64,000 nt of DNA, from contig NZ_JASISP010000010.1 of assembly GCF_030063185.1 (NCBI RefSeq), forward strand, positions 1-64,000, written 5' to 3'. The notes under the pieces were generated by a model, which saw only the letters and a list, made by a program, of their open reading frames with translations, ran no database searches and had not been told where the DNA came from. Below, in pieces: positions 140-58,308 of this stretch. The first letter of the stretch is position 1, and each line of letters opens with the position of its first letter. Position numbers and translations under genes: made by a program. Source of the stretch: Arthrobacter sp. H35-D1. GTDB lineage: Bacteria; Actinomycetota; Actinomycetes; Actinomycetales; Micrococcaceae.

Positions 140-350
140 TTCATCCCACGTACTTGCGGAGGTCTGAGACTTCGAAAAATCGCGGTTTTCCCACCCTCCA
201 GTTGAAAAACGTCACGACAACGGGGGCGGAATTGGCCCTTAGCAAGCCAAAGCCGTGACCAACTTTTCGTTCAAAAACGTGAGTAACGCGTGATTGGGCC
301 CCTCTGCGCACCTGTCCGGTGAAGTAAAACCGCAGGTCAAAGCCCCTTTT

Positions 351-387
351 GGTGCCCTGGGCGGGAATTGAACCCACGACCAAGAGA
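351..387 (-). repeat. att-like copy 1: 3' end of tRNA-Arg(UCU)
   Basis: These 37 bases match 5,708-5,744 and 14,808-14,844 with one mismatch (T for C in the acceptor stem). In the intact tRNA-Arg gene the same segment runs from the anticodon stem through the T arm to the acceptor 3' end. There is no 5' half here, so this is not a working tRNA. Just left of it, 327-340 keeps the AACCGCAGGTCA motif of the tRNA terminator. It is read as the outermost attachment site of an element integrated at the tRNA 3' end. Confidence 0.75.
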
Positions 388-1077
388 AACTCAGGACTCT
401 CATGCCAACAGTCTCCGTTGAGCGCCAAAGACCGCCAGTTTTCGGGGAGAGCGGGACAATGGGCCCCTCGCCAGGGTTTGCGGATACTGGTCACGGCCCG
501 TGAATCCATGGCCAAGGACCGGACCAGATCAATCAACGCCCTGAATGCTTTAACGCGCAGTAGCGACCTCGGAATCGATGCCCGCAAGAAGCTCACCGCT
601 GCCCAGATGGAGGAGATCTCACGATGGCGTGAACGCGAAGAAGAACTGGCGTTGAGAATCGGTCGGACCGAGGCCATCCGCCTCGCCAAGCACATCTTAG
701 ACCTCGGCGAACGGCTGGAATCCAATGAGAAGCAGCTGGCTGATCTGGTCAAGGTCAGCGAGGCTGCACCTCCGCTACAGGAGAAAGGCTTCAGAGCCGT
801 GACCGCGGCGAAGTGCGTCGTGGCTTGGTCCCATGAAGGACGGGTCCGTGACGAAGCGGCTTTTGCTTGCCTAGCGGGAGTGAACCCCATCCCCGCGTCA
901 TCGGGCAACACGGTGCGGCATCGCTTGAACCGTGTAGGCGATAGAAGGCTCAACAGCGCCCTACACATGGCTGCGATCACCAGGATGACCCACGACGCTG
1001 AAACCCGTGACTACGTCGAGAAACGCCGTGCTGAGCGCAAAACCGATAAGGAAGTTCGGCGCTGCATCAAACGCTAC

Positions 1078-2170
1078 CTAGTGCCCCGCGCCGTTAATTC
1101 GTTTTAATAGTCGTCCCAGTGATTCGAGGATGCCTTCGGCGGTCTTCGTCCAGATGAACGGCTTGGGATTCTCGTTCCATCCCTTGACCCAGTTGCGCAG
1201 GTCTTTCTCCAGCGTCTGTACGTTCCTGTGGTCGCTGCGCTGGAGTAGTTCCCGGGTCACTTCGGCAAACAGCCGCTCGACCTGATTGATCCAGGACGAG
1301 TATGTAGGGGTGAAGTGCATCGTGAACCGCGGGTGTTTGCCAAGCCACGAGACAATGGTTGGACTCTTGTGCGTCCCGTAGTTGTCGCAGACGATATGCA
1401 CGTCCAAGTCCGCCGGGACCTGCGCATCGATCTTGGTCAGGAACTTCTTGAACTCCACGGCCCGGTGCAAGCGGCAGGTGGAGGCGATCACGGTCCCATC
1501 AGAGACGTTCATTGCCGCGAACAGGCTTGTGGTGCCATGGCGTGCATAGTCATGGGTGCGCTTCTCGGGCATGCCCGGCATCATCGCCGAATGCCGGCTG
1601 TGACCGGGACAGGGCCTGGACCTGAGATTTTTCATCGACGCTGAGGACCACCGCGGATTCGGGCGGGTTCAGGTAGAGACCCACGATGTCGTAGACCTTC
1701 TCCACGAAGAACGGGTCGTTGGAGAGCTTGAACCCGTCGGTGCGGTGGGGCGTCAGGCCAAAAGCCTTCCAAACCCGCCCGATGGTGGACTTTGACAACC
1801 CGGCGCGTTCGGCCATCTTGGAACGGGGCCAATGGGTCGCGTTTTCCGGAGTGCTTTCCAAGGTGGCGACCACGATATCTTCGACCTGCTCGGTGGTGAT
1901 CGTTGCCGGTCTCCCAGGGCGTGGATCATCGCTGAGCCCATCCAAGCGGTGCTGCACAAACCGTGAGCGCCACTTCGTCACCGTCGGGGCCGAGCACCCG
2001 ACCAAGACGGCGACGTCCTTGTTCGCCATCCCCTCAGCGCAGGCCAGTACGATCCGCGACCGCAGCGCCAGCGCTTGGGCGGTCTTGCGCCTGCGGGTCC
2101 ATCGCGACAGCTGCTCGCGCTCTTCATCGCTGAGGTCCAGTTCGGACTTGGGCCGTCCGGTGCGTGCCAT
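1078..2170 (-). pseudogene. IS630-family transposase, frameshifted
   Basis: The first frame (ATG at 2,170) encodes the N-terminal HTH region and the first catalytic Asp in SVDEKSQVQAL. The second frame carries MMPGMPEKRTHDY, the second Asp in VCDNYGTHKS and the catalytic Glu in NQVERLFAEVT, ending in LLKRINGAGH. The join needs a one-base shift near 1,580-1,592. No A-rich or other obvious slippery site lies there, so I favour a mutation over programmed frameshifting. The stop codon TAG is made from the target TA plus the next host base, so the coding frame reaches the very end of the element. Confidence 0.85.
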
Positions 2171-2215
2171 TCACCAATTTTAACACTTATTGAACGAATT
2201 TACGACGCGGGGCAC
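1081..2215 (-). mobile_element. IS630-family insertion sequence, 1,135 bp
   Basis: Terminal inverted repeats of 23 bp, 1,081-1,103 and 2,193-2,215, match at 21 positions and begin GTGCCCCGCG. A TA dinucleotide lies on each side (1,079-1,080 and 2,216-2,217), the target duplication expected of the IS630/Tc1/mariner group. It is inserted in an IS110 transposase gene. The single transposase gene on the minus strand carries a frameshift, so the copy is probably unable to move on its own. Confidence 0.92.
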
Positions 2216-2283
2216 TAGCCCGACGGGTGTTCAGCATACTGAATGCCGCCTCTCACTCGAACATGGTTCAAGAAGCGACTTGA

Positions 2284-2648
2284 CAGACATAGAAGAGTCG
2301 TAGGGACATGCCAGCCACCGCCCGCGCCGCCGTGGAAGACGCTATAACGCTTGCCGTGACGGGTGTGGATGAGAACCGCCCGGTTGCGCTCTTGGTTCTT
2401 TTGAGGAGCACGATCAAAATAGACGATGTCCTGGGACGGTACCTTGTATTTTGCCTGCACAGGCGCATTCCCACATGATTCTTCGATACCGTTATGCCCG
2501 CATTTTTTCTGAGTCAACGCGCACACTATCGAATTAGCGCGTCGGGTCGTATCATCACCTTAGGAAACCTCACCGAGCGGTTGGGTTGACTATTCGCAAT
2601 TAAATCCCAAGGCTTCGGCGATCCCGGGCCACTCCGTGGAGGTGCGTC
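2284..2648. other. Spacer between IS110 remnant and secreted protein gene
   Basis: No gene is supported here. An open minus-strand frame (start 2,526) overlaps the IS110 tail antisense and has no recognisable motif. A strong ribosome-binding region (GGAGG near 2,638-2,642) at the right end belongs to the next gene. Confidence 0.4.
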
Positions 2649-4352
2649 ATGTACAAGTTAAGATTGCTGACGGCGGCGGCTGCCGCCGTCCTTTTAGTAC
2701 CGATTCTCCCCGCAGCCGCAGCGGTCACGGGCGACCAGCTCGTGAACACCGGCAGCACTTCAGCACCATTCTCCCAGAACAAGCAGAATGAGCCTGGTCT
2801 CGCCGTCGACGCCGCGCACCCCACGGTGCTCGCGGCCGGTGCAAACGACGAAATCGACATGGAGGCTTGCGCCGCGGGCGCGCCGAACACCTGCCCGTTC
2901 ACCCAGGGTGTGGGCGTCTCCGGAATCTATTTCTCCATGGACTCCGGACACACTTGGACCCAGCCCACGTACAGTGGTTGGACCGCACGAGACTGTGTGG
3001 GACCAGCGGTGTGTGCACCCCACGTCGGTCCGATCGGAACTCTGCCGGGCTACTACGAAAAGGGTCTGGTTTCCAATGGTGATCCCGAGTTGGCATTCGG
3101 GCCGCGCAGGGGCGCGGACGGAGCCTTCTCCTGGGCGGCCGGCTCCCGGCTCTACTACAGCAACATCGCCACCAACTTCGGGACAACTCGCAGCGATCAG
3201 GCGTTCAAGGGATCCGGGGCGATTGCGGTGTCACGCACCGACGACGTGGCGGCCGCTGCGAACAACGATGCCAGCGCATGGATGGCTCCCGTCATTGTGA
3301 GCAAGCAGAGCAGTGCCACTTTCAGCGATAAGGAGCAGATCTGGGCTGACAACGCTGCCAGCAGTCCCTTCTTTGGGAATGTGTACGTTTGCAACGTCAG
3401 CTTCCGCAGCAACGGCCACGGGGGTGCTCCGGAGCCGGTTATGCTGCACCGCTCGTCAGATGGGGGCGATAACTGGACTACCCGCCAGATCTCCGCCGCA
3501 GTGAATAACGCTCAGATTAGCGGGCGTCAGGGTTGTGCTGTACGCACAGACGGCGCAGGCCGGGTGTACGTGGTCTGGTCCGGCTTTACGCCAGCAGGCG
3601 CAAGTGTCTTCTACCAGGCGACTTCGGACAACGGCGGCGCCAACTTCACACGGCCTAGGGTCGTGATGGCAATCGGTGGTATCGGCCAACTGGATCCCGT
3701 CACCGGGCGATCCACCATTGACGGCGTCGCAGGTTCGCGGACCGACGTCTTTCCGAGCATCGATATCGCAAATGGTGCGCCTACCGGCGTAGGGGCCCTG
3801 AACACGGTGGTACTTGGTTGGTCCGACGACAGCGCAGGAACCAATATGGAGCGGGCATATGTCTCCTTCTCCAGCGACCGCGGCGCGAGCTATAGCTCAA
3901 AGCAGGCGGTATCTACCACCGGCGACCGCGCTAACCAGCCGGCGGTTGCCATCTCGCCCAATGGAGGCACGGTCTACATGACCTATAACGCCTGGCACGC
4001 TGCCTGGCAGACGACCACTGCCAACGCGCGCCCGATGGAGGGGGTCGTGCTCAGCGGCCCGACACGGGGCACCCTCGCGGAAGTTCACCGTGGAGTCTCG
4101 GGCGACGCCCGCGGCTCGAGCGCCAATTCACTGACGGCGGAGTTCCTCGGCGATTACAACTACGTGGTGGCGACCGACAGCTACGGTGCGGCCCTCTGGA
4201 ACGATGTGCGTAACGCGACCGATTGCCCCGCGGTGGATGCGTACCGCGAGGCGCTGGCCAACGGCGGCACGCCGACCCCGCCCGTGCCGTGCCAGTCCCC
4301 GATGACCGCCTTCGGCAATACGGACATCTTCGGTTATACCTCGGCACCGTAG
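2649..4352 (+). CDS. Secreted Asp-box (BNR) sialidase-fold protein
   Basis: A 567-residue protein with a Sec-type signal peptide (residues 1 to about 24: Lys/Arg, an Ala/Val/Leu-rich core, AAAA before the likely cut). Several Asp-box motifs of the S-x-D-x-G-x-x-W type follow: [25 protein letters not shown] and SSDRGASY. These mark a six-bladed beta-propeller as in exo-sialidases and related extracellular glycosidases. I cannot place the sialidase catalytic arginine triad or Tyr/Glu pair with certainty, so enzymatic activity is inferred from the fold only. The start is supported by GGAGG about eight bases upstream. It stands alone inside the island, is intact, and is probably cargo. Confidence 0.75.
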
Positions 4353-4471
4353 ACTGATCCGAGGTCGCTCGACCGGGCCGTCGCGCTTCCGCGGCGCCCC
4401 GATCGTGCGGCGTGCCGTCACCTTGCTGCTCTCGCTCGGCTGGAAACTACCGGCATGCTTAGGCTAGGTCC

Positions 4472-4729
4472 ATGACAGCACAGTTCACACACGACGACTG
4501 GGCCAGCACGGCCGAGACCCTAGACCTCGATGCGTTGCTGTTGGACGAGCACTTCCAAAGGATTTTCGGCTGGACCAAGGAAATGGCCGGAGATCCACGC
4601 ACCATCGTGGATCTGGGTGCCGGCACCGGCACTGGCACCTTTGGTTTGGCACGCACGTTCCCGAAGGCCACCGTGGTAGCAGTCGATCAATCGGAAACTA
4701 TGCTCAACCGGCTTCGGGGACGGAGATAG
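4472..4729 (+). pseudogene. Truncated class I SAM-dependent methyltransferase
   Basis: The 85-residue frame contains helix alpha-A and motif I (VDLGAGTGTGTFGLA) plus the acidic end of beta-2 (VVAVDQSE), the S-adenosylmethionine-binding half of a Rossmann methyltransferase. Family members are usually 200-280 residues, so about two thirds is gone. The frame ends at 4,729, inside the 3' end of the convergent GIY-YIG gene, which marks a deletion or recombination junction. Not expected to work. Confidence 0.7.
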
Positions 4730-5189
4730 TCTCCAGATACTCATTGCAGTCGGCTTCCAGCGGTGCTGGGGTGTAACGATTGGAAGCGGCGTTGCCGTTC
4801 ATGAGCGGGAATCGAGCGGCCTGGGCAGCCCGGGAAATGGCTTCCCATTCCATGAACCCCACATGAGTATCAGTCCAGGTATTGGTCAACGAAACCGCAA
4901 CGATGGCTCGTTCCCAAAAGTCCTTGCCAGTAACGTGTTGCTTGAGCTTGCCACCGACGTTACCGGTTTGTCCGATGTAACAGGAAACGCGTTCCTCCGA
5001 ATCACCGCCAAACAGGAAATAGAGTCCCACCTGCGATGCTTCAGGCGTCGAGAGGAAACCACCAAGCAATGACCGGTGCGCGTCGAAAACGCGAACCGTT
5101 CGTGTAGTTATTTCTGCCATGCGGATACCGGAAGGGTCACCGTGAGGTAGAAAAATCTGGATCGTTTGGGGACGTGAACTGGCCCGCAT
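4704..5189 (-). CDS. GIY-YIG nuclease family protein, short form
   Basis: The 161-residue product has an N-terminal beta strand pair (TIQIFLPHGDPSGIRMAEIT) as found in the GIY-YIG proteins that carry a C-terminal DUF4357, then the nuclease core with GLYFLFGG and CYIGQTGNV and a downstream Glu in FMEWEAISRA. The start at 5,189 is chosen because GGAGGAG lies eight bases before it. An upstream in-frame ATG at 5,216 has no such site. Relatives of this type are close to 300 residues, so the C-terminal half is probably lost at the junction with the methyltransferase remnant. Phage and island genomes often carry such genes. DNA cleavage is possible but not shown. Confidence 0.7.
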   Translation of the reverse strand: MRASSRPQTIQIFLPHGDPSGIRMAEITTRTVRVFDAHRSLLGGFLSTPEASQVGLYFLFGGDSEERVSCYIGQTGNVGGKLKQHVTGKDFWERAIVAVSLTNTWTDTHVGFMEWEAISRAAQAARFPLMNGNAASNRYTPAPLEADCNEYLETISVPEAG

Positions 5190-5216
5190 TTCGGGTTCTC
5201 CTCCGGAAGACGGCAT

Positions 5217-5655
5217 ACGAGGTCAAACTTACCCCCAGAACAGACTGGACTTGGGTCTGCCTCGGCTTTGGGTGACTCACCACCTCCCTTGGGGTCGGCG
5301 AGCGGCTCGTTCCACGGTCCCGGCAACAATTAGCTTTACGGGCCTGAGAGCTAAGTCCTGAAGGCGACGAAAGCAGTCAAGCGGCGGTCCGTGCTATGCA
5401 TCGACTGCCGCCCGACGTTGTGTGCCTGAACACCCTTCTCGTGGAACGGCAGCAGCGAGGAGGCCTGCCCAACTGGGGATTCAACGAACCAAGTATCTCA
5501 AACGGATGGCTTGTCGCGGGCGCATGCCACCGTCTGCTTGCGTTACAGACCGCCATGGGCCTCGATGGCGTCGGTGTGGCGTGAAAAGGGGGAGTGATTT
5601 CTGAAGAAAATTTCGCTGAATTGGGGGAGTCAAGGGGGAGTTGGGCCGTTTTTGG
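5217..5655. other. Spacer without a supported gene
   Basis: Short open frames occur on both strands (for example 5,396-5,584 plus) but none has a good ribosome-binding site or a recognisable motif. The right part, 5,590-5,650, is rich in GGGGGAG and AATTT stretches. It could be degraded island DNA. Confidence 0.4.
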
Positions 5656-5744
5656 CCTTAAACGGTTCTGAGCTGCGGAACATAACCGCAGGTCAGAGCC
5701 ATATTTAGGTGCCCCGGGCGGGAATTGAACCCACGACCAAGAGA
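5656..5744 (-). repeat. att-like copy 2: tRNA-Arg 3' end plus terminator
   Basis: This 89-bp segment aligns without gaps to 14,756-14,844 (offset 9,100) with about ten mismatches. Its last 37 bases (5,708-5,744) are identical to the tRNA-Arg(UCU) 3' part. The left part keeps the tRNA's hairpin terminator with one stem mismatch. The anticodon and 5' half are missing. Its position between two outer copies fits the internal attachment site of two elements integrated in tandem. Confidence 0.85.
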
Positions 5745-6447
5745 ATGTCACCATCTGAGCGTCACGAGGTGTCGATGACTATCATAATTCGCGTATTCTC
5801 GGGTGTTTTGGTCCTCTTTGGCGCCCACGACATGTCAACAATTGCCGTAGTTTTCGGTTGAATTAGATGGGTAAAAGATGAGCGACGATCCAGCATCTGT
5901 TGACACCATTCAGCTTCACATTGGCGTATCTGTCAAATCAGGTCCGTCAGCGCCTTGCAATCGGGTGTAGACCCGCGTCAATGGCTACCATTTTACGCTT
6001 GAAAGATTGGTCAGTCTATTGACCGTTGGCCCAGGATCGAGTCGCCGTCGGTGATGATAGGGGACTGGTCGGCCATCGTGATTTTGTGTGTGGATAGGGG
6101 CTTGGTGAATCTCTGAGGTGTCAACTGTGGCCTCATGTAGCCGAGCGCTACTGCAAGGACTACAGCCAACCCACAGTGATCGATGGGCGGATCCAGAGGC
6201 CCGTTTTGGGTTTTGAGGGTCGGAGCCCTTGAATTGGCGTGTCCAAGTTGCCCGCGCTGCACTTTCTGGTTCAGACCCGAATCAGGGACTATTTGCCAAG
6301 CTTGCCCGGCAGGGCTATGAGAATGGGATCACGGGGCTTGAAAACCTGTCCCGTATAAGGCCGGGCTTTTTTGAGGGCGGGTCGAGGAGGTGCGTTGGAT
6401 GCACACCATAATCAGTGGCGGGTCAATGGAGATGTAGGCGTAGGAGT
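5745..6447. other. Spacer inside the island
   Basis: No gene is recognised. A 30-codon frame at 5,878-5,970 (MSDDPASVDTIQLH...) looks protein-like but has no clear ribosome-binding site and no family. A minus-strand frame at 6,011-6,262 is also unassigned. A GC stem followed by TTTTTT at about 6,350-6,373 could be a plus-strand terminator. The stretch may hold remains of deleted genes. Confidence 0.4.
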
Positions 6448-6687
6448 TCACGGACCTTCTGGGTCTCATCCCTGTACACCGGACCCATTGCCGTGGCATT
6501 CCCGGATGCCGGAGACCTGAGCATGTTCGTCGCAGCAGCCATCGCCGCCATCGTTCATCTGGCTACCTACCGGCTCCGCCCGCTGTCCAAACCCAGGAGA
6601 TCAGCAGAAGACCTGGACCCCGCCGTGCAAAAAGCTTCTGCCGAAGTCGGCCAACCCTTGGCCGTCGCCCCACAGGCGGGGAAGTGA
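6448..6687 (+). pseudogene. C-terminal remnant of an NCS1-type permease
   Basis: Only the last 75-80 residues remain: LYTGPIAVAFPDAGDLSMF, one hydrophobic membrane helix (VAAAIAAIVHLATYRL) and a charged cytoplasmic tail. The YTGP...GD/ADLS pattern is found at the last helices of nucleobase:cation symporters of the cytosine/allantoin permease group. The other ten or so helices are missing. Its TGA overlaps the GTG start of the hydrolase gene, so the two were once an operon. Confidence 0.6.
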
Positions 6688-7268
6688 GCACATCCGCAGG
6701 CAACCGCCAGCGCACGCTCGTGGCGATCGACGTGCAGCACTACTTCCGCGACGAGACCAGTCAATGGTCCGTCCCACGTTACGCCGACATCGTGCCGGTG
6801 ATTGACACTCTGAGGAAATCCCTGCCAGACCCGGCCATCTTCACGAAGTTCGTTGCCGGCCCCAGGAACACGGGGCCTGAGGCAGCTATTATCCAGCGAT
6901 GGAACCAGATGCGGTTGCCGGAAGACGACCTCGGGTGGGCCCTCACAATGGACACCGCAACCGGCGACCACACCTTCGCCAAGGGCACGTTCTCCAAATG
7001 GGGGCATGAACTCGCCGACCTCATCCCGCCCGGCGCGGAAATGGTGCTGACGGGCGTAGCCACGGACTGCTGCATCCTCGCCACCGCACTCGGTGCCGTC
7101 GACGCCGGACGCTACGTAACCGTAGTAACCGATGGCTGCGCCGCCGTCAGCGATGAGGCCCAGGACCAAACCCTGGGCCTGCTGGAACTGCTGTCACCAA
7201 TGTGCACCGTCGTGGCCAGCACAGAATTGCTGGCCGGGATTGCCTCGACGACCGCGGTCGGCGGGTGA
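6684..7268 (+). CDS. Isochorismatase-family cysteine hydrolase
   Basis: The 194-residue product has the isochorismatase fold and the Asp-Lys-Cys triad: Asp in LVAIDVQHYF (about residue 15), Lys in HTFAKGTFSKW and the nucleophile Cys in GVATDCCILATAL. Members cleave amide or vinyl-ether bonds in small molecules (nicotinamide, ureido compounds, isochorismate). Next to a nucleobase-type permease remnant, an amidohydrolase step in N-heterocycle or ureide use is a fair guess, but the substrate is unknown. The GTG start overlaps the stop of the permease remnant by four bases (GTGA), which points to translational coupling. All key residues are present. Confidence 0.85.
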   Translation: MSTSAGNRQRTLVAIDVQHYFRDETSQWSVPRYADIVPVIDTLRKSLPDPAIFTKFVAGPRNTGPEAAIIQRWNQMRLPEDDLGWALTMDTATGDHTFAKGTFSKWGHELADLIPPGAEMVLTGVATDCCILATALGAVDAGRYVTVVTDGCAAVSDEAQDQTLGLLELLSPMCTVVASTELLAGIASTTAVGG

Positions 7269-7382
7269 CCTGACGGGGGAGTAGCCCGCCCTGCAGGCCG
7301 AACAGCCTCCACTCCGGAAGTACTGGCGGCTGCGAAGGCAGGCGTCCGCAGGTCGCAGTGCAGAGAAAAGTAGGAGGACAAG

Positions 7383-7700
7383 ATTGCCATTATCAGCCGT
7401 TCCGGAGGGACGCTTGAGGAAGCCCAAGACACCAAAAGGCTCCACGTCGAAGTCAGCGACGGACTAAGCGAACTCCAAATTGCCGCGGCCTTGAAGCAGT
7501 CAGGGCTGGGCACGCTGGCCGAAGGTCGCGCTTTTCTTCGGATCTTCTGCCTGCGGCACCTGACCGGGCCGCCGGCAACGCCGGAATGGGATACGGCGTT
7601 CACAGCCATGGCAGATTATGCCAGTTCCAAGGGATGGACCAACACTGAAGGGGAACTACAGGCCCACCTTCAATACACAGCAGCGGGCGAAACCGAATAG
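7383..7700 (+). CDS. Unidentified 105-aa protein, apparent ATT start
   Basis: An open frame follows the hydrolase and encodes a soluble, helix-rich protein (IAIISRSGGTLEEAQDTKRL...GWTNTEGELQAHLQY). A perfect AGGAGG lies at 7,372-7,377, five bases before ATT at 7,383. An in-frame TAG at 7,371 excludes an upstream start. The next usual start (TTG near 7,491) would lose a third of the protein and has no such site. ATT initiation is known but very rare, so a mutated ATG is also possible. No family is recognised. The position suggests the same operon as the hydrolase. Confidence 0.55.
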   Translation: MAIISRSGGTLEEAQDTKRLHVEVSDGLSELQIAAALKQSGLGTLAEGRAFLRIFCLRHLTGPPATPEWDTAFTAMADYASSKGWTNTEGELQAHLQYTAAGETE

Positions 7701-7711
7701 CGCCCGGGCGG

Positions 7712-7735
7712 TGGCGACATTTGGCGGTGTCGCCA
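7712..7735 (+). terminator. Hairpin after the hydrolase operon
   Basis: A perfect eight-base stem TGGCGACA / TGTCGCCA with an eight-base loop begins 12 bases after the stop codon at 7,700. The T tail is weak (TTTG), so it is a terminator or an mRNA-stabilising hairpin. Confidence 0.5.
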
Positions 7736-8272
7736 TTTGCCCGTGAGAGGGAGCCATAGTGAACAATCATCCGTGGGTAGCGCGTTGTCAGAGCTTCTCG
7801 CTATTTGACTGAACCGCGTGATCGGTCACCCGATAGATGACTCGCAAGATACGTTGGGAAAGCCGTGACTGCCAAGAAACTCCAGTCGATGGAGGGCGGT
7901 GACCTGTGCTGTCACTTCGATTTCCGTGACTATCGGGTCCGATGATATGCGTGTCAGAAGAGAGCGTACACAAACGGGAGCGCCCATCCTCCTCAAGGCG
8001 TGGCCTCTTACGCGTGTCCGCAGCCGGTAAGGTTTAACAGTCCGAGCAACAAAGAGGTGCCAACGCACGGGGCGCCTACCAGCGTCCCGGCGTTTACTTA
8101 TCTCGTGGGCGCGTTCACACCGGTCCGCCAAGTTATTTTCAAGGGGCTCAAGTCCTGTCAGCGTCTTCATCGCCAGCCCCATAGAACGCCCCCGTAAGTC
8201 TTTTCTGGACTGTATCATTGGCATAGGTTTCGACATGATTTGTCCAGCGCTGGTGTGACTAGAGGAGGACAC
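7736..8272. other. Spacer before the acetyltransferase gene
   Basis: A minus-strand open frame (about 7,826-8,302) crosses this region and overlaps the next gene antisense; it has no motif and no ribosome-binding site. I see no gene, RNA or mobile-element end that I can support. Compared with flanking genes the base composition is lower in GC, as elsewhere in the island. Confidence 0.35.
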
Positions 8273-8995
8273 GTGCGGGCTTTGGAATGGACGGCACCCC
8301 ATGGTTTCTCAATCCGCGCGGCCGGACAGGGAGAGATCGCCGAGTTCAAGCGGCTTGTTAAGGCAATGAACGTTCCTTTTGAGCCGACTGAAGCCGAAAT
8401 CGAGGACGGATCAACCGGTGCTTTCCTTCGGGCCGCTTTCCTCGATGGCAAACGCATGGCAGTGCTCGAAGCAGCAAGCCGGGTATTAGTCGACAGTGAC
8501 TCCTATCGATCCTTTTATGCAGGTGTTTCCCTGGCACTTGTGGCGGTCGACAGTTCAAGCCGCGTTGTAGGGTTGCTCCAAGCCATACCTCCAGGACAAG
8601 TCATCAATGGCCTGCTTGAGAGCGGGTGGCCGCTACAAGACTCGATTCCGCTGGGCATCAAGGTCGCAAAAGTGTCAGCCCTTTGGGTGGACGAGGAGGC
8701 TCGCCGAGCGGGCTTGGGCTCAGCCTTGCTGGACAGCTGTTGCGACGTATACTTCGCGGCTGGCTTCAGCCTCGTCTACGGCAATTTTCGTCTATCCTCT
8801 CCGATCGATCTCGAGAGCTTCTACGGCGCCACAGGATTTCGGATTCTGCCTCCGGGGGATCGTATCCCCGTGGGAACAGGACAAGGCCGCATCGTGGACA
8901 TAGGTACGGAACCGGACCAGAAAATCTTTTACATGACTCGCGGGAATTGGGCGAAGCTCGACCGTTCAAAGCCGAAGTTAGACGAGCCGATCTGA
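8273..8995 (+). CDS. GNAT-family N-acetyltransferase
   Basis: The product has 240 residues with a GCN5-type acetyltransferase core in its C-terminal half: beta-4 VSALWVDEEAR, then the acetyl-CoA pyrophosphate loop RRAGLGSALLDSC and SFYGATGFRIL. GTG at 8,273 is chosen because AGGAGG ends four bases upstream. A TTG at 8,240 in the same frame has no such site. The N-terminal 110 residues are less typical. The substrate (amine, antibiotic or protein) cannot be read from the sequence. It is intact and alone, likely island cargo. Confidence 0.75.
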   Translation: MRALEWTAPHGFSIRAAGQGEIAEFKRLVKAMNVPFEPTEAEIEDGSTGAFLRAAFLDGKRMAVLEAASRVLVDSDSYRSFYAGVSLALVAVDSSSRVVGLLQAIPPGQVINGLLESGWPLQDSIPLGIKVAKVSALWVDEEARRAGLGSALLDSCCDVYFAAGFSLVYGNFRLSSPIDLESFYGATGFRILPPGDRIPVGTGQGRIVDIGTEPDQKIFYMTRGNWAKLDRSKPKLDEPI

Positions 8996-9325
8996 TTCAC
9001 CTGCAGCAGCACGAGAAGACTTTCCTCCAATTCGTCACACTTAAGTGGAGTCAGAATCCTCTGGCTTTTCCATCCGGAAGGATCCCCAGATGTCCGTCCT
9101 TTCCAGCACTGAGCTAAGCCCTATTGCCGGTTTCGCTGTCATCTGCGGTTAGCCCGGATTTTGCATGGTGGCTGGTTTGGCTGCGCGATCAGCATTTGAT
9201 TTCTAGCGGCGCTGTGTTTGTTGTTTGGGGCGTGCGTTCGGGGCCTGTTGTCGCTGGCTGGGCGCCGGTGTCCACGGTGTCCGAGGTGTCGTTCGGGATG
9301 ATCGAAGGGGCCGGCCGTGTGGTTC

Positions 9326-9556
9326 TCAGGCCAGCAATGATGACTGTTTTCGGCGGGTTTTCTTCAGCTCCGTGATGGTTGCCAGTAGCGTGGTGATCGT
9401 GCCGGCTTCGGGCGCTTGGTCGGGGATGAGTAGCCAGGTGCGGCGCGCCCGGGTGATGAGTTTTCCCGCGGTGGCGAAGAGCCGGTATCACCACCGTTTC
9501 ATATCCCAACCCCGCGCAGCGTGTCCGTTGGGCAGTGCGGCGAGTTGCAGCCATTA
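9326..9556 (-). pseudogene. C-terminal fragment of a transposase (IS1380-like)
   Basis: Minus-strand translation gives LQLAALPNGHAARGWDMKRW, an in-frame TGA, then YRLFATAGKLITRARRTWLL and a short Lys/Arg-rich end before TGA at 9,326. The RLFATAGKLI-RAR-TW pattern resembles the C-terminus of IS1380-type DDE transposases; the family call is tentative. The catalytic part is absent and a nonsense codon replaces a probable Trp. The flanks 8,996-9,325 and 9,557-9,702 hold no gene I can support. Confidence 0.45.
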
Positions 9557-10465
9557 TGTAGTGCCCGCGGTTATGCAGAAAAGGGTCACCGAGGGGTTAC
9601 CGGTCCGGCTCGTTGTCTGTTCTTCCCTTTCGTGGCTACTTTCCTGCTTTCTACATAAGAACCCGAGGCGCATGCTGGTCTTCCCAACGAGGGAAGGTGA
9701 GCATGATGGTGAACCATTCACCGGGGCCCATAGGCGGTCCCCTTTCGACCTACGTACAGGGTTTCGTGAGGCCCTGCACGATCTAGGGTATGCCGAGTCG
9801 AGAATCTGCCAGCTGACGGCCTTGGTAAGGCGTTTGGACCGATGGCTCCAGCACAAGGGGCTGGACGTTGCGTCGCTGGATGACCACGAACTGCAATTGT
9901 TCCTTGACGCCCTGAGCGCAGAGACTCAGGGACCTCACCCAACAGCGGCTTCGTTCACCTTCTTACTGGAGTATTTGCGCACTGTTGGTGCAACCCCGTG
10001 GCTCGCGGCTGACAAGGAACCGGAGAGCCTAGAGGAAACTATTATCGATGGTTTTGGGCGCTATCTCCGTATTGAACGGAGGCTCGGTACCCAGTCTGTC
10101 ACCGGCTATGGGAAGACGGCAGGTTCTTTCATGCAGTGGTTGGAAAGGTCTGCCAAGACACTGCAGTCGATGGACGCTTCAGATGTCATTACCTTTGCCA
10201 CAAGCTTCTACAGTGCCGAGCAAAGCCTCCACGCGAAAAAAGTGCTGACGGGGCTGCGGTCATTCCTACGGTGGGCATATTTGGAAAACCTGACGGAGCG
10301 AATTTGGGTGGAGGTAGTTCCCTCTGCTGCGAGCCATGGCGCAAACCTGCCAAAGGGGTTCAAGCAAAAGGAAGTCAACGCATTGCTGGCAACATGCGAC
10401 CGCGAGACCGTGACGGGGCTGAGGAACTACGCAATGTTGGTTCTTATGAGCAGGCTGGGGTTACG

Positions 10466-10916
10466 TGTCAGCGGCCATGAGAAAGTGCCCATACGCGGCC
10501 AACAGGAGAGCCACGATTCGATGGCCGTCAGTGGGCTCGTAACTCGCCATTCCGGCGCCAAAATCTCGATTTTGCATTGTCTGCGGGGACTGACAAAAAA
10601 TCGTCTTGGCGATACAGCTACGGCATCCCTCTACGGCATGGGCCAGGAAGACGCCCTTGGGCCTCCGATCCGTGCATTCCCGTGCCATCGGCGATCCTCT
10701 GGACGTTCAGGAGCATGCGGCAGGTCCTCGACGCAATGGTCGCCAAGCGATTCTCGTCCTGCATGAGCGACGGCGTATCGATAGTTGTTTTTTGGGTACA
10801 TTGACGGCGAAACAGGAGCGATGTGCCTGGCCGCCAGCGGGCACGCTTCGTGGCCGTCCAGCGCCTTTCTTGAATCCTATTGGCCGCCAGTGGGCACTTT
10901 CTCATGGCCGCTAACA
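10466..10916. mobile_element. 451-bp MITE-like element with IS21-type ends
   Basis: The element starts TGTCAGCGGCCATGAG and ends with the inverted form (CTCATGGCCGCTAACA). The outer 22 bases of both ends share GCGGCCATGAGAAAGTGCCC. A second, diverged repeat (GCGGGCACGCTTCGTGGCC) lies at about 10,838, as in the multiple terminal repeats of IS21-family elements. A six-base target duplication GTTACG is present at 10,460-10,465 and 10,917-10,922. It is far too short for istA and istB, so it would have to be moved in trans. Its centre has open frames but none I recognise. Confidence 0.85.
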
Positions 10917-11001
10917 GTTACGAGCCGGCGAAGTGTCGGCCTTGCGGCTGAAGGACGTGGACTGGCGGTCGGGGGAGATCCTGATCCGTGGCAAGGGACC
11001 C

Positions 11002-13482
11002 CAGGGCTCCGGATATGGCGATTTATTCTATGTAGGAGTGCGCCTTGTTTTTGACGGTGAATCTGAGGACGAGGTCGGTGCCGGGGTAGCGGGTTTTCGT
11101 GGTGGTGAGGTGCTCACACAGTTCGGCGGCGGCATCGGTTTTTGCTTGGGTGGGCAGCCGATCGAGGGTGATCGTGAGGAATCCTGGAACGGTGGGGTCG
11201 ATGTCGCCGGACTGATTGAACAATTGCCGCATGAGCGCGTGGGCTTCATTGCCGGCTTTGGCATAGCCGGTGTTGGTGCGGATCTCCCTCGCGATCGTCA
11301 TGGCGGTGTTGTAGGCGGCCATGCGGATCCCGGTATGGATCAACTTGACCTCGGTATCCAGGACTTGCTGGCCGGGGGATAGTTTCCCGAGCATGATTTT
11401 CGCAGGGATCTTCTTATGTGCCTTCTCGGCCGCTAGCAAGTCTTTCTCGGCTTTCCACAACGGCTTCGTGATGGTGTTGTGCATGGTGCTGGTCACCACG
11501 ACCTTCAACTCCTTCGCCCCCACCGGCGGGGTTCGCAGGGCGGCCAAGGCTGCGTCAACCTCTGCGGCAACTTCGGCATGGTGTTTCCTGGCGGTGAGGA
11601 CTTTTTGATACGAGGCATTCTTCGCCGGATTCGGCACCAACCGCTTTGCATCATCGTCACTGCTGGCGTAAGAATCGTGGGAGTCAAGATCGAAGTGCAT
11701 GCGTGCGTAGCGGAATTGGTTTTCCTGCCGCCACCTGTTGCCCATACGCCATACCGCTTCCCCGGCGGGCAGTGTGCGGTTGGTGGTGAGGATGTGGATC
11801 TGCCGTGTTCCACCGCCCTTGCCCTTGGCGGGAACGATACGGCTGAGCTGGCGCATCGGGTACATTTCCCCGGTTTTCTTCGTCGTGGGCAGTACCAGGT
11901 CAACGATCGTGTCCGCGACCGACCAGGTCTTCTCTTCGCCGTGCTCATCACTATGGGAGACCTCGGTGAACTTTGACTCATCAATGTCGGCGGTGGTGCC
12001 TTTGCGCCAGGTGAGCACATCGAAACCATTCTCATCCATGTGCTTGAACAAGGCCGGTGACCAGCCACCACGATCGAAGCCGACGAGGACACGCCGCTCG
12101 TCCCCCACCGCTTTGCGTAGTTCAGGCAGCAGGTTACGGAGTTCACCGGCTAGGGACGCCCCGGGCTCGGCCATGACCACGAACACGGGGGAACCGTGGG
12201 CGTCGGTGACCCAGGTTTCCTCCGTCGCCGGGACCGGGAACTTCAACCGGGTGGAGTAGAGCTTGCCGATCTTTTTCGTACCCTGGTACGCGCGCACGTG
12301 CCCGTCCACGTAGAGGATCGCGGCAAGGTTCTCACCGTTCGGGCCGGTACCGTTGAGGTGGTGGGCGGCCAAGGCTGAGATCAGCTCTTGGGCTTTGCTG
12401 GTAGCGGCGAGTTGGTTGATCCGGCGGCGGATTGTTTTTACTTCAGGGGTGCGATCCAGCCCCAACACCCGCCCGAGTTCTTCCGGGTTGAACCGGGTCG
12501 CGCCCTCGGCCCGTGTTTCTCCGGCCAACGCCCGCACCACCGCATCAATCAGGATGGCATTCAGCCCGTAGAAACCATCCGGTAAAGCACCAAAGACGTC
12601 TTTCGAACACGTCAGCAGGCCTGTGGTTTCCAACGCGGGCATCGCCAGAAACAACCCGGCATAAGGGACTTTCGCGGCAGGTGCGAACACCGGGGCAGCC
12701 TCTGCCAGCAGCCCGGCCCTCGCTGCCGAACGTTCCCCCGCACGCGGCACGGCCACAGGCAGTATCGGCAGCTCCGGCTGCATCGGTGCCGGCCCTTGTT
12801 CGCTGACCGGCGCCGGCGCGGAGAACTCGGGCAACGCTTGGGGGCCCTGTATATTCGTCGCAGCCTCGACGGTGACCGGCTTCGGGACTGCGACTGTTTT
12901 CAGGGCACGGCGAACACTGAATTCAGACACGCCCACCGCGGCGCCGACTGCTCGCAGAGAAAGTCCCATTGCCCGTAGTTCCGTGATCCGTTCCACGACG
13001 TCCTCACCGAGGCGGGACGGTCCCTTCGGACCCATGGCTTCCGGAACCAGTCCCGCAATCCCGGTCGTCTCCAGCACCTGGCGCCACCGCCATAACGTCA
13101 CCGCGTCCACCCCGAACCCGGTGGCAATCTGTGCGACCGTGGCGGCCTGGATCCCAACCAACGTCGCGGCAGCAAAACGACGGGTGGCAGCATCACCAAC
13201 ATCCCAAACGTAGGCGAGCTGGCCATGAATGAATACCCGACCGCCTTCGGCGTTCTCCACCAGCGACGCCGAGCCGCCCAAGGACACGACACCGGCCGCC
13301 ATGGGCACCGGAAGTGGAGGCTGCGAAGTCATTATGACCATCACTCGAGACCCAACGCAAGAAATTTATCCATACAATTATTATATCGCAAACAAGACAA
13401 AATTAACAGTTCTCACGCCACCAAAAACACCGGAAAATCAACGAACTGCCAAACCCATCATCCTGCTATGACCGGAGCCCTG
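11002..13482 (-). mobile_element. Insertion sequence, 2,481 bp, with 773-aa transposase
   Basis: The ends are perfect 11-bp inverted repeats, CAGGGCTCCGG at 11,002-11,012 and CCGGAGCCCTG at 13,472-13,482. A five-base target duplication GACCC flanks them (10,997-11,001 and 13,483-13,487). It sits in the catalytic domain of the integrase gene. A single intact transposase gene fills most of it. The 13,345-13,471 end is A/T-rich compared with the rest and may hold the promoter. The IS family is not certain. Confidence 0.9.
11023..13344 (-). CDS. Large DDE transposase of the 2.5-kb IS
   Basis: The 773-residue protein begins with a helix-turn-helix region (residues 65-150, including IATGFGVDAVTLWRWR and a second SLRAVGAAVGVSEFSVRRAL). 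A Pro/Ala-rich linker leads to a catalytic domain with Asp in LYVDGHVRAY (about 345), Asp in VGFDRGGWSP (about 423) and Glu in WRQENQFRYARMH (about 538), a DDE arrangement like IS4-type enzymes. It is about twice the size of common IS4 transposases. The frame is intact and the element may still be active. The stop codon lies only 21 bases from the IS end. An upstream second Met (13,332) is an equally good start. Confidence 0.85.
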   Translation of the reverse strand: MMVIMTSQPPLPVPMAAGVVSLGGSASLVENAEGGRVFIHGQLAYVWDVGDAATRRFAAATLVGIQAATVAQIATGFGVDAVTLWRWRQVLETTGIAGLVPEAMGPKGPSRLGEDVVERITELRAMGLSLRAVGAAVGVSEFSVRRALKTVAVPKPVTVEAATNIQGPQALPEFSAPAPVSEQGPAPMQPELPILPVAVPRAGERSAARAGLLAEAAPVFAPAAKVPYAGLFLAMPALETTGLLTCSKDVFGALPDGFYGLNAILIDAVVRALAGETRAEGATRFNPEELGRVLGLDRTPEVKTIRRRINQLAATSKAQELISALAAHHLNGTGPNGENLAAILYVDGHVRAYQGTKKIGKLYSTRLKFPVPATEETWVTDAHGSPVFVVMAEPGASLAGELRNLLPELRKAVGDERRVLVGFDRGGWSPALFKHMDENGFDVLTWRKGTTADIDESKFTEVSHSDEHGEEKTWSVADTIVDLVLPTTKKTGEMYPMRQLSRIVPAKGKGGGTRQIHILTTNRTLPAGEAVWRMGNRWRQENQFRYARMHFDLDSHDSYASSDDDAKRLVPNPAKNASYQKVLTARKHHAEVAAEVDAALAALRTPPVGAKELKVVVTSTMHNTITKPLWKAEKDLLAAEKAHKKIPAKIMLGKLSPGQQVLDTEVKLIHTGIRMAAYNTAMTIAREIRTNTGYAKAGNEAHALMRQLFNQSGDIDPTVPGFLTITLDRLPTQAKTDAAAELCEHLTTTKTRYPGTDLVLRFTVKNKAHSYIE

Positions 13483-14019
13483 GACCCTGCCAAGAGAAAC
13501 TGCCGTCGCCGCACGACGTAGGATCCGCTTTGGCTGATTATCTGCACCAGGGACGTCCTCACGGATGGGGAAACGCCATGTTTTTGAAGCTCTATGCTCC
13601 CTTGAAAAGCCTGACTTCAGGCGACGTTACAAACGTCGTACTGGTCGCTTCAAAGCGCGCCGGAATTCCAGGAGCTTGTGCGCACCGACTACGGCATACT
13701 ACCGGGACGCAGCGCTTACGATCTGGCTCGTCACGGGCCGAGGTCGGGCAAGTCCTGCGTCATCGAAGTCCAGCCAGCACCGCACTGTATGGTTTTATTC
13801 CACGGATGCGGCCCAAATAGCTATCCGACCTACAGCGGCTTCCCCCTCGGAGGTGGTGCCGACCCAGCGGCGATGCCCCTGCACTTCTGTGTCTTCTTCC
13901 ATTCTCGTCAGCATATGCCTTGAAACGGCGGTTGATGTTCAACGCTCTACCGGCTCGCTAGACGCGCGATCCCGTTCCCTTACTACTGAGATCCCTGGTC
14001 AATTCGGGTCCGGAATCGG

Positions 14020-14430
14020 CTATTGGAGGTCATCGCGAAAGTCAATCGATCCATCACGGCTGACACTAAAGGTGAAACCTGATGCATCTCTCCAACTCAG
14101 TACCGGGATTGCATTGTTGCTGCTCCCACGAATGATCCGGGCGTTCTCTCCATCCGTGGCATTCTTCCAAATCCCTTGGAAGGTGTGCGCGATGGTGGCG
14201 TCGAGCCACTTCAACCGAGTAGTTGTGCCTGGCGTCGCATCCCATCGCACCTCCGGTTCAGCCTGCAGAAGTGCCGCGCCAGATATTGCGACATCAAAAA
14301 TTGGACCTGTGCCGACGTTTGCCACCCTGAAACTCCCATATGCAATGTGGACATCTCCTGAATCCATAGTGCTGCCAGAGGACATCCAGCATACCGAAGT
14401 AGCGACGGCAAGGGCCCGTGATCGATTCAT
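14020..14430 (-). CDS. Unidentified 136-aa protein, coupled to a membrane protein
   Basis: The ATG at 14,430 overlaps the TGA of the upstream gene (ATGA), so translation is probably coupled. The N-terminus (MNRSRALAVATSVCWMSSGS) could be a short signal peptide, possibly with a lipid-modified Cys. The rest is beta-rich with a repeated pattern of small residues (YGSFRVANVGTGPIFDVAIS, ASGFTFSVSRDGSIDF). No family is recognised. A longer start at 14,457 exists but lacks support. It lies between the integrase remnant and the tRNA and is island cargo. Confidence 0.5.
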   Translation of the reverse strand: MNRSRALAVATSVCWMSSGSTMDSGDVHIAYGSFRVANVGTGPIFDVAISGAALLQAEPEVRWDATPGTTTRLKWLDATIAHTFQGIWKNATDGENARIIRGSSNNAIPVLSWRDASGFTFSVSRDGSIDFRDDLQ

Positions 14431-14693
14431 TCGATTCTCACTTTTGACCGCCTCCAATCGGGCACGACCGTCACGACGAAAGCCCCAGACCCGGTTCCTA
14501 AAGCCATCACCGATCCCCCTACAAGCGAGATAACTAGTAGTCCATACCAGTGCTTGCGGATTACGGGCTCTTCCGAATGCAGGGTGTAATCGGGGTTGCT
14601 CGGTGATGAATCCGGGCGGGGAGCTCGTTTGGGCGTAGGTGAGGGCCTTGGTAGAGAATCAGATTGTCTACCAAGGCCCTCACCTCTACCCAA
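14427..14693 (-). CDS. Small membrane protein of unknown function
   Basis: The C-terminal 45 residues form one membrane helix (WYGLLVISLVGGSVMALG) followed by a short basic tail ending DWRRSKVRIE. The start is unclear: ATG at 14,693 places the first 40 codons inside a large palindrome (14,563-14,758), and that part (Pro/Arg/Ser-rich) does not look like protein. A later, non-ATG start close to VIRKHWYGLL is possible. It overlaps the next gene by ATGA, so the two form a unit. Confidence 0.45.
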   Translation of the reverse strand: MGRGEGLGRQSDSLPRPSPTPKRAPRPDSSPSNPDYTLHSEEPVIRKHWYGLLVISLVGGSVMALGTGSGAFVVTVVPDWRRSKVRIE

Positions 14694-14758
14694 TCAACGC
14701 TGCACCCGGAATCATCACAGAGCAACCCCGACTACACTCTGCATTCTGAAGAGCCCCT
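14563..14758. repeat. Long imperfect palindrome, about 93-bp arms
   Basis: The left arm (to 14,655) and the right arm (from 14,667) are inverted copies with about 85 % identity by eye. The inner 18 bases are perfect (GGTGAGGGCCTTGGTAGA and its complement) around an 11-base loop. The left arm overlaps the 5' part of the small membrane protein frame; the right arm ends where the third att copy begins. It could form a very long hairpin in DNA or RNA, or be an inverted duplication made at integration. Confidence 0.8.
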
Positions 14759-14844
14759 TAAACGCTTCTGACCTGCGGAGCATAACCGCAGGTCAGAAGG
14801 TGTTTTGGGTGCCCCGGGCGGGAATTGAACCCACGACCAAGAGA
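14756..14844 (-). repeat. att-like copy 3, within the intact tRNA-Arg gene and its flank
   Basis: This is the copy that overlaps the complete tRNA (14,808-14,844 is the tRNA 3' part plus two bases). It aligns over 89 bp to 5,656-5,744. It marks the tRNA-side attachment site of the island. Confidence 0.85.
14768..14796 (-). terminator. Terminator hairpin of tRNA-Arg
   Basis: A perfect 11-base stem, CTGACCTGCGG and CCGCAGGTCAG with a seven-base loop, lies 14 bases past the tRNA 3' end on the minus strand. The T tail is poor. The hairpin is duplicated with the att copy at 5,668-5,696. Confidence 0.65.
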
Positions 14845-14882
14845 TTAGAAGGCTCCTGCTCTATCCGCTGAGCTACCGAGGC
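14810..14882 (-). tRNA. tRNA-Arg(UCU)
   Basis: A 73-base minus-strand cloverleaf: acceptor GCCTCGG with CCGGGGC (one G-T pair), D arm GCTCAGCGGATAGAGC, anticodon loop CTTCTAA with anticodon TCT, variable region, T arm GTGGGTTCAATTCCCGC and discriminator A. CCA is not encoded. It reads rare AGA codons. Its 3' part is the target copied at two positions in the island. Confidence 0.95.
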
Positions 14883-15064: not shown

Positions 15065-15721
15065 ATGGCTAACCACGTCAGTATCAGGGGCTTCATGTCC
15101 TCAGAGTTCGAGATGCGCAACACCCCCAATGGTCTTGTCATCGGAAATTTCCGCATGGGTTCCACCGAGCGCCGCAAGGACCCCGTCACCAACGCGTGGG
15201 TCGACGGGCACACCAACTGGTATCACATCAGTGCCTTCCGCTCCCTTGCCCAGAACGCCGTCTCCAGCATTCACAAAGGTGACCGCATCTTGGTCATCGG
15301 AAGGCTGAGTATCAAGACGTTCCTGCGCAAGGACGGCACAACCGGCACCAATGTGGAAATCGAGGCCGACAGCATTGGCCCGGACCTGCAGTTCGGCACC
15401 TCGCACTACACACGCATGGCAAGCGCTCGTCCGGCAGGCCAACCAGGCGATTCGCATGAGACCGGCGATGCCTCTCAAGAGGGGCATCTGTCCGTTGCGG
15501 CCAACCACGGAGAAGTGCCCGAAGATTCCCTGCCCGCGAGTAGCGGCCAAGACGGTGAAGACGGTGATGACGGTGGGGACGACGACAACCTCGACGGCGA
15601 CGCTGCAGCCGTCATGGACAACCGTGAGCACGGTGATCACGACGATGGAGGTGGCCTCCGAGACGGGGAACTCGCCGATCTGGAGACGGGGGAGATATTA
15701 AAGGAAGCTGCACCCTTCTAG
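15065..15721 (+). CDS. ssb: Single-stranded DNA-binding protein
   Basis: A 218-residue protein with the bacterial SSB OB-fold in residues 1-110 (VSIRGFMSSEFEMRNTPNGL, GHTNWYHISAFRSLAQNAV, DRILVIGRLSIKTF). It binds single-stranded DNA during replication and repair. The long tail is Gly/Asp/Glu-rich and ends EILKEAAPF instead of the usual DDDIPF-type tip, so partner binding may differ. ATG at 15,065 is chosen because the OB fold starts there and AAAGG precedes it. It is the first core gene after tRNA-Arg and could be a second SSB of the genome. Confidence 0.9.
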   Translation: MANHVSIRGFMSSEFEMRNTPNGLVIGNFRMGSTERRKDPVTNAWVDGHTNWYHISAFRSLAQNAVSSIHKGDRILVIGRLSIKTFLRKDGTTGTNVEIEADSIGPDLQFGTSHYTRMASARPAGQPGDSHETGDASQEGHLSVAANHGEVPEDSLPASSGQDGEDGDDGGDDDNLDGDAAAVMDNREHGDHDDGGGLRDGELADLETGEILKEAAPF

Positions 15722-58053: not shown

Positions 58054-58224
58054 GGACTCTGGGAACTTCAGGCTCCCGTACCTCGGCTGCCTGAAGGCCC
58101 GGAAGCTTCAGGAAAGGGGACCGGCCCGCAGCAGACAGGAAGAAACACCGCCACCGGCGGAGTTCACAACTGTTTGTTGCGGGCCGGTTTTCGCTAAGCC
58201 GAGGAGGCGAGGCTAGGGTGAAGA

Positions 58225-58308
58225 GCGACACGGGGTGCCAGGACAAGAGGTCCGGCTGAGACAAGACCCGTTGAACCTGCCCGGCTAGCACCGGCGAAGG
58301 GATGTCCC
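58225..58308 (+). promoter_or_regulatory. TPP riboswitch
   Basis: The THI element shows ACACGGGGTGCC, GGCTGAGAC, ACCCGTTGAACCTG and ACCGGCGAAGGGATGTC in order, the conserved parts of P2, J3-2, P4 and P1. The last block contains GAAGGGA, the Shine-Dalgarno of the next gene, whose ATG is at 58,309. TPP binding would hide the site, so control is at translation initiation. Confidence 0.95.

Follow-up and report, generated by a model that had tools for sequence, protein, structure and literature searches.

Tandem units with three classes of arm sites, mostly lacking an integrase, at tRNA-Arg(UCU) in Arthrobacter

The first 64,000 nucleotides of contig NZ_JASISP010000010.1 of Arthrobacter sp. H35-D1 (assembly GCF_030063185.1), here called the window, carry a tRNA-Arg(UCU) gene whose 3' half recurs twice to its left as a 37-bp core (Table 1). 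All three cores share one orientation. Copies 2 and 3 can be aligned over 89 bp (5656-5744 and 14756-14844, offset 9,100) without a gap, at 88.8% identity. A strong terminator-like fold lies beside the tRNA, and CCGCAGGTCAGAG, half of this hairpin, is found again next to most cores. The first-pass annotation had reported the three copies, their alignment and the hairpin, and had taken the cores for attachment (att) sites with tandem accretion in one orientation, all of which is borne out here. Base 1 of the window is also base 1 of its contig (C1 of an 86-contig assembly; genomes, contigs and loci are numbered with G, C and L throughout), so that the chromosome left of position 350 lies outside view. 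The same genome has three further cores (C34:11126-11162, C5:81466-81503, and C5:72057-72090), and ARAGORN found no tRNA on C34 or within C5:68000-87000.

Of 58 genomes examined, 54 had a match to the tRNA query, and single genomes in the genus of the window had up to 11 among the matches listed. Thirty-six stretches (1.424 Mb) containing 89 cores were fetched from 22 of 23 genus genomes (all except G009), picked around core matches among those listed. Iterated direct arm-type sites flank the cores at fixed distances and fall into three classes, A (ACGTGAGT), G (GGGGGAGT), and D (AGATGAGT), which have one layout in common: left sites at about -156, -110, -86, and -75 and a right pair at +121 and +132. 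Classes were called with 18-base templates of the pairs at a threshold of 14, which was reached by 18 of about 20,000 random 55-bp windows; many cores score 15-18 of 18, while 34 of 89 have no right-side class (21 of these being the tRNA gene itself) and 21 of 89 have no left-side class. Seventy-nine of the 81 arm pairs found with at most one mismatch in the fetched stretches stand where they are expected relative to a core, in offset and in strand, and the remaining two (G005 and G019) have no adjoining core. Throughout the 23 genus genomes, pairs of class A (n = 52), G (n = 28), and D (n = 20) were found, and backward-read controls gave 0 in each class. The arm pairs resemble the arm-type sites of tyrosine integrases and may be bound by such an enzyme. 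Classed arms accompany 16 of the 21 tRNA-linked cores, in line with the integration at tRNA sites of integrative and conjugative elements (ICEs) and integrative and mobilizable elements (IMEs). A conserved protein gene common to all unit ends was considered and rejected, the core-side clusters being mostly frames in conserved noncoding arm DNA or native tRNA flank.

Among the 53 core-to-core units, 37 have both ends classed, and in 33 of these the two ends belong to the same class (17 A, 11 G, and 5 D). As the two ends of one element share one attP, their arms are expected in one class, and the matching ends thus indicate that core-to-core units are discrete elements. The 33 observed matches compare with an average of 14.5 (never more than 26 in 20,000 rounds) when classes were shuffled over all genomes, and with an average of 21.8 (never more than 32 in 20,000) when shuffling was kept within genomes. 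Arms flanking a single core on its left and right belong to different units, and their classes agreed in 21 of 41 cases. The 33 matched units are bounded by cores with matched arms, as a cis-mobilizable element (CIME) is bounded by attL and attR.

The array integrases are phage-type PF00589 proteins with a Phage_int_M domain, and they are of two types that are about 71% alike. The A type occurs in seven units with classed ends A (G001, G010, two in G021, G012, G014, and G004) and the G type in four with classed ends G (G022, two in G012, and G020); in a twelfth integrase-bearing unit, that of G002, the G type is found between a left end of class G and a right end of class A. Integrase type and arm class agree in 11 of these 12 testable units, one being mixed; four more relatives (G013 C6, G007 C5, G004 C28, and G010 C122) are not placeable in classed units. 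A TrwC relaxase accompanies the integrase in four of the six integrase-bearing matched units. Integrases of Arthrobacter phages such as Galaxy are the closest phage relatives of the class A integrase, with at most 45.5% identity over 93%, but the array units carry TrwC relaxases. Neither the A nor the G type was found in the genome of H35-D1, the sole homologue being 40% identical and adjoining tRNA-Thr, and the pieces in the window should therefore be immobile unless a helper arrives. Integrases about 37-42% identical were examined as the class D enzyme and rejected; 9 of 13 scanned loci lie beside tRNA-Thr(UGU), L201 lies beside tRNA-Ala, three have no tRNA, and no A, G, or D pair within one mismatch was found at these loci.

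Integrase-less units are in the majority. Twenty-seven of the 33 matched units (3.7-33.4 kb) have no PF00589 match at E 0.001, and six (19.5-60.5 kb) have one. Open reading frames (ORFs) common to at least three of the six integrase-bearing matched units (74 of 202 entries) were taken as a backbone set and searched for in every unit. No backbone match was obtained in 24 of the 27 integrase-less matched units, among them all 21 under 15 kb.

In nearly finished genomes, long runs of same-orientation cores stand beside tRNA-Arg, for example at 2.10-2.24 Mb in G012 and 2.80-3.01 Mb in G021. The comparison with an empty site proposed by the first-pass annotation was run on the relatives G015 and G012 and supports insertion. 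The tRNA core and a gene with protein sequence MQTYLPYPDFQQSAAALDTTRLGKQ... are 0.85 kb apart in G015 but 175.8 kb apart in G012, which indicates accretion at the tRNA, and the G015 site is itself not pristine, having a partial core-like match and an arm-like remnant between the tRNA core and this gene. Unit left ends of G001 and G005 are alike over 4.65 kb (98.6%, starting at base 3 of the unit), those of integrase-less units in G017 and G021 over 1.88 kb (93.0%, the tRNA's own flank being 79% and 70%), and those of D units in G012 and G019 over 1.76 kb (89.5%). Likeness that begins within a few bases of the core points to recent movement of unit ends.

The window itself had been described as two insertions of about 5.4 and 9.1 kb, which does not agree with its arms. 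The first 80 bases of unit 1 were typed by nearest neighbours, a procedure that was right in 51 of 55 leave-genome-out tests, and are A-type, the +121/+132 arm pair being absent with an IS110 remnant in its place, while the right end is of class G. Since 33 of 37 units elsewhere have matching ends, unit 1 most plausibly represents two elements that were fused, an A end having been joined to a G end. A G-class integrase-less unit of G005 has 95.6% identity to window DNA at 2520-4464, which indicates that internal cargo moves as well. Unit 2 is a D element in which one arm set, that of the damaged right end, is gone; a scan left of the tRNA found no arms. Nor are the leftmost 350 bp chromosomal flank, as the sequence left of 350 had been taken to be: the stretch 181-343 is 78% identical to C5:81295-81457 of the same genome, and bases 204-350 form the arm region of a further element. 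Traces of at least four elements are present in the window. A search of the H35-D1 genome for the left chromosomal flank with G012 flank DNA gave only a 447-bp match of 65% on C66, in a different gene.

The dead integrase reported for the second unit is a broken recombinase gene (9675-13820), interrupted first by a stretch containing inverted repeats of 42 bp and then by a transposase gene. It is XerC/D-like, with scores below the NCBIfam cut-offs, and tblastn gave no match at E 0.01 to 15 stretches that include array integrases, so that it was rejected as the enzyme of this site, on which it has no bearing. Both window units have cores at both ends, with arms that are incomplete or unlike. 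Neither carries a relaxase or cognate integrase of its own, as an ICE or IME would, and the lack of integrase and transfer genes that marks CIMEs is seen in both, unit 1 having none and unit 2 only the broken XerC/D-like gene.

Table 1. Positions of cores, arm sites, units, and genes in the window
Feature	Position	Strand	Remarks
Class A arm pair left of copy 1	277..294	+	15/18, worn; terminal arms of an element outside the contig
Open frame	349..1107	+	past ~470, IS110-family transposase remnant (profile 120-331 of 343)
att core copy 1	351..387	+	36/37, E 2.6e-11
A-type right-arm sequence, left end of unit 1	388..467	+	nearest neighbours all class A
Unit 1 (5.4 kb)	388..5707		A-type left end, G-class right end; no integrase or backbone match
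Transposase in two overlapping frames	1078..2170	-	Pfam: 1078-1635 DDE_3, 1550-2170 helix-turn-helix (HTH); presumably IS630-like
567-amino-acid protein	2649..4352	+	no Pfam or NCBIfam match
Methyltransferase fragment, 85 amino acids	4472..4729	+	
Class G arms left of copy 2	5588..5640	+	single site 5588; pair 5623-5640, 17/18
att core copy 2	5708..5744	+	37/37, E 1.1e-12
Unit 2 (9.1 kb)	5745..14807		left end of class D; no right arms
Class D arm pair at the left end of unit 2 (right of copy 2)	5865..5882	+	17/18
Isochorismatase-family hydrolase	6684..7268	+	cargo
GNAT acetyltransferase-like protein	8240..8995	+	cargo
Front of broken XerC/D-like tyrosine recombinase	9675..10502	+	Phage_int_SAM_1 38.4 bits; XerD-type partial, below cut-off
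Transposase within recombinase gene	11023..13344	-	Pfam Transposase_29; IS1380-type below cut-off
End part of broken recombinase	13530..13820	+	PF00589 positions 101-165, 25.2 bits (cut-off 27.1)
Inverted repeat, 192 bp	14565..14756		83% between halves; occupies the expected place of the right-end arms of unit 2
Terminator-like hairpin just downstream of tRNA	14765..14799	-	-33.4 kcal/mol, z -7.4
att core copy 3, inside tRNA	14808..14844	+	
tRNA-Arg(UCU), attachment gene	14808..14882	-	ARAGORN tRNA-Arg(tct); Rfam RF00005 61.8 bits
SSB-family protein	15083..15721	+	on the undisturbed side, the gene closest to the tRNA; conserved next to it in relatives

Likely, these arrays belong to a genus-wide family of tyrosine-integrase elements that insert in tandem at tRNA-Arg(UCU) and have three arm classes, and whose integrase-less units are served in trans. 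The attP of such an element would consist of the core (the tRNA 3' half including the T-arm), the left direct arm sites, and the right pair, all in one orientation and of one class. Large units have integrases of the type that goes with their arm class, and most units, above all the small ones, have matched arms and cargo without integrase or backbone. The integrase of a large element may recognise its own arm class and thereby integrate and excise integrase-less units of that class in trans, in which case the array would behave as three compatibility groups of giant cassettes, interleaved with one another. In this reading, the window holds worn pieces of an array, namely an A/G fusion and a D unit minus one arm set. 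A further proposal is that the small units (class-specific ends plus cargo, often with a defence-like gene adjoining the left end) never were complete elements, that the integrases of relaxase-bearing elements of the same class act on them in trans, and that these integrations, in bringing the core's own T-arm, exchange the 3' half of the tRNA-Arg(UCU) gene between alleles; this is a serious possibility to which we would give slightly less than an even chance.

The standard account of such tandems, according to passages of two papers (PMC5704250, PMC3146451), is decay, whereby complete integrase-bearing elements lost their integrase and backbone to leave CIMEs, which now move, if at all, in cis with an intact neighbour. 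Broken or partial integrases indeed occur in units (G014, G012 2118709, and G020 C34:259186), and matched ends would outlast an internal deletion. However, no trace of the 74-entry backbone remains in 24 of the 27 integrase-less matched units, and related integrase-less units share core-anchored left ends at differing array positions (G017/G021 and G012/G019). Movement in trans is therefore favoured, and decay seems unlikely, although it retains some weight. A reading of the window as just two complete elements (5.4 and 9.1 kb) agrees with the cores that bound both stretches and with the unlike ends of 4 of the 37 classed units elsewhere, but the A-type left and G-class right arms of unit 1 with insertion sequence remnants between them, and the missing right arms of unit 2, make it very improbable. 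Almost no credence is due to the idea that the cores are not att sites but common repeats that homologous recombination or insertion sequences have spread. Insertion sequences abound, and the three further cores of H35-D1 as well as arrays in two relatives lie away from the tRNA; against this stand the fixed two-sided arm spacing, the matched classes, the phage-type integrases within units, the tRNA as terminal member, and the finding that only 2 of 81 arm pairs are away from cores.

Several observations weigh against a trans-served element family. Mobilisation in trans is inferred from sequence, and matched ends would also fit the loss of integrase and whole backbone in a single deletion. No class D integrase was recognised in the 23 genomes despite the 20 D arm pairs, and three integrase-less matched units show backbone traces (G002, G020, and G021). 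Four of the 37 classed units have unlike ends (G002, G006, G010, and G021), which may be read as fusions via core loss. Arrays without a tRNA gene exist in G012 (2.64-2.68 Mb) and G005 (1.26-1.33 Mb), according to ARAGORN, and on C5 and C34 of H35-D1. Sampling took one genome per species and mostly the genomes richest in copies.

Tandem accretion of islands or CIMEs with integrase-less members is known in kind, while the three arm classes with matched ends, an integrase type that follows class, and mostly no backbone remnants are new in form. Passages on the ssrA islands of Dehalococcoides (PMC3146451) describe tandem insertions at one RNA gene, with 3'-end repeats as bounds, within 100 kb; 16 islands have an integration module and 15 lack one, the latter being suggested to be cis-mobilizable. 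The likeness lies in tandem islands at one RNA gene, many without an integration module, but in Dehalococcoides that module is a serine recombinase next to attL at tmRNA/ssrA, whereas the arrays have a PF00589 tyrosine integrase at tRNA-Arg and do not belong to that group. The word "arm" does not occur in those passages, whereas here three arm classes mark the ends that belong together (PMC3146451). CIMEs related to ICESt1 of Streptococcus have, in passages of PMC5704250, attL and attR without integration or transfer genes and stand in tandem with intact elements, and the array units are likewise att-bounded, mostly integrase-less, and in tandem. There CIMEs are described as decay products moved in cis, whereas here 24 of 27 units have no backbone remnant and the ends fall into three classes (PMC5704250).

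In its working, though not in its sites, the array may resemble clusters of attC sites lacking integrases (CALINs) and miniature inverted-repeat transposable elements (MITEs), which passages of PMC11389934 call "hitchers", that is, enzyme-less cargo between recognition sites that is mobilised in trans. Array units do not appear to be members of either group, their sites being tRNA cores with arm sites, although no attC search was made, and their lengths 3.7-33 kb (PMC11389934). No description of this tRNA-Arg array or of three arm classes was seen in the titles and abstract openings of the literature consulted.

Arm class can be read at both ends of a unit, independently of cargo, and the ends thus tell which integrase should act. 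Integrase-less islands occur commonly, with a mobility that is difficult to assess; the arm classes make their mobilisation in trans directly testable and allow units, fusions, and remnants to be told apart, as for the A/G fusion in the window. If true, class-bound sharing of integrases would be a large-scale counterpart of integron cassettes without an integrase. Tycheposons are reportedly cargo-rich integrative elements at tRNAs that were proposed as satellites, and array units may be likened to them by description only, as cargo-rich and tRNA-associated.

The attachment gene itself differs between relatives. Three T-arm spellings occur among the cores; of the 21 tRNA-linked ones, 15 have the first, five the second (G003, G011, G016, G017, and G019), and one the third (G006). 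In a tree of the tRNA flank, the spelling differs within the sister pairs G010/G019 and G003/G014 (both with support 1.000) and G006/G021 (0.988). ARAGORN still called the gene of G017 tRNA-Arg, this being the one scanned of the six variants. Integration that brings its own T-arm would explain these allele differences between sister species. The T-arm allele of an essential-looking tRNA gene thus varies in a manner that such integration would produce. The variant tRNA-Arg(UCU) T-arms match T-arm spellings of array cores, as if integrations had replaced the 3' half of the gene.

In the integrase-less units the cargo seen is metabolic: hydantoinase-like, carotenoid-type, and agmatinase plus sugar ATP-binding cassette transporter genes, all assigned by eye, and in addition amine oxidase. 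A defence-like gene frequently adjoins the left end. An Abi-like protein of 236 amino acids, matched by PADLOC PD-T4-5 (E 4e-8) and, below the cut-off, by Pfam Abi_2, is found in five A units, in four of them at about +620 to +645 and in the fifth at +2076. Two D units have a Fic protein (PADLOC SoFic, E 1.7e-61) at about +440. At +313 to +427, five units (three of class G) encode a 188-amino-acid protein that was judged RelE-like only by eye. In several integrase-less units (L115, L070, L075, and L059) a single defence-like gene, Abi-like in A units and Fic in D units, was noticed near the left end, about +440 to +645 right of the cores. A 33-kb class D unit (G002:C1:3450070-3483181) without a PF00589 match contains carotenoid-type, photolyase-like, and MMPL-type genes (by eye).

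The tRNA-less arrays span G012:C1:2641936-2677623 and G005:C1:1255111-1335063, and tyrosine-recombinase clusters lie just outside them (G012 2632097-2634419 and G005 1250067-1253186). Nine loci of the genus (L203-L209, L218, and L219), one of them on C9 of H35-D1, have beside tRNA-Thr(UGU) integrases of a second family with about 37-40% identity to the G type. For named genomes, one contig scan gave 40 loci, of which 14 with a plus-strand tRNA-Arg-like match (minus-strand ones were not covered) were scored, with best arms at 10/18. Locus L137 (WNZI01000002.1:108222-128716), titled Vibrio cholerae strain 35D, has an SSB-like gene 46% identical to that of the window and ranks among Arthrobacter records, so that the record or its title looks mislabelled. 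A thiamine pyrophosphate (TPP) riboswitch at 58221-58319 of the window (Rfam RF00059, 61.7 bits) has no relation to the array.

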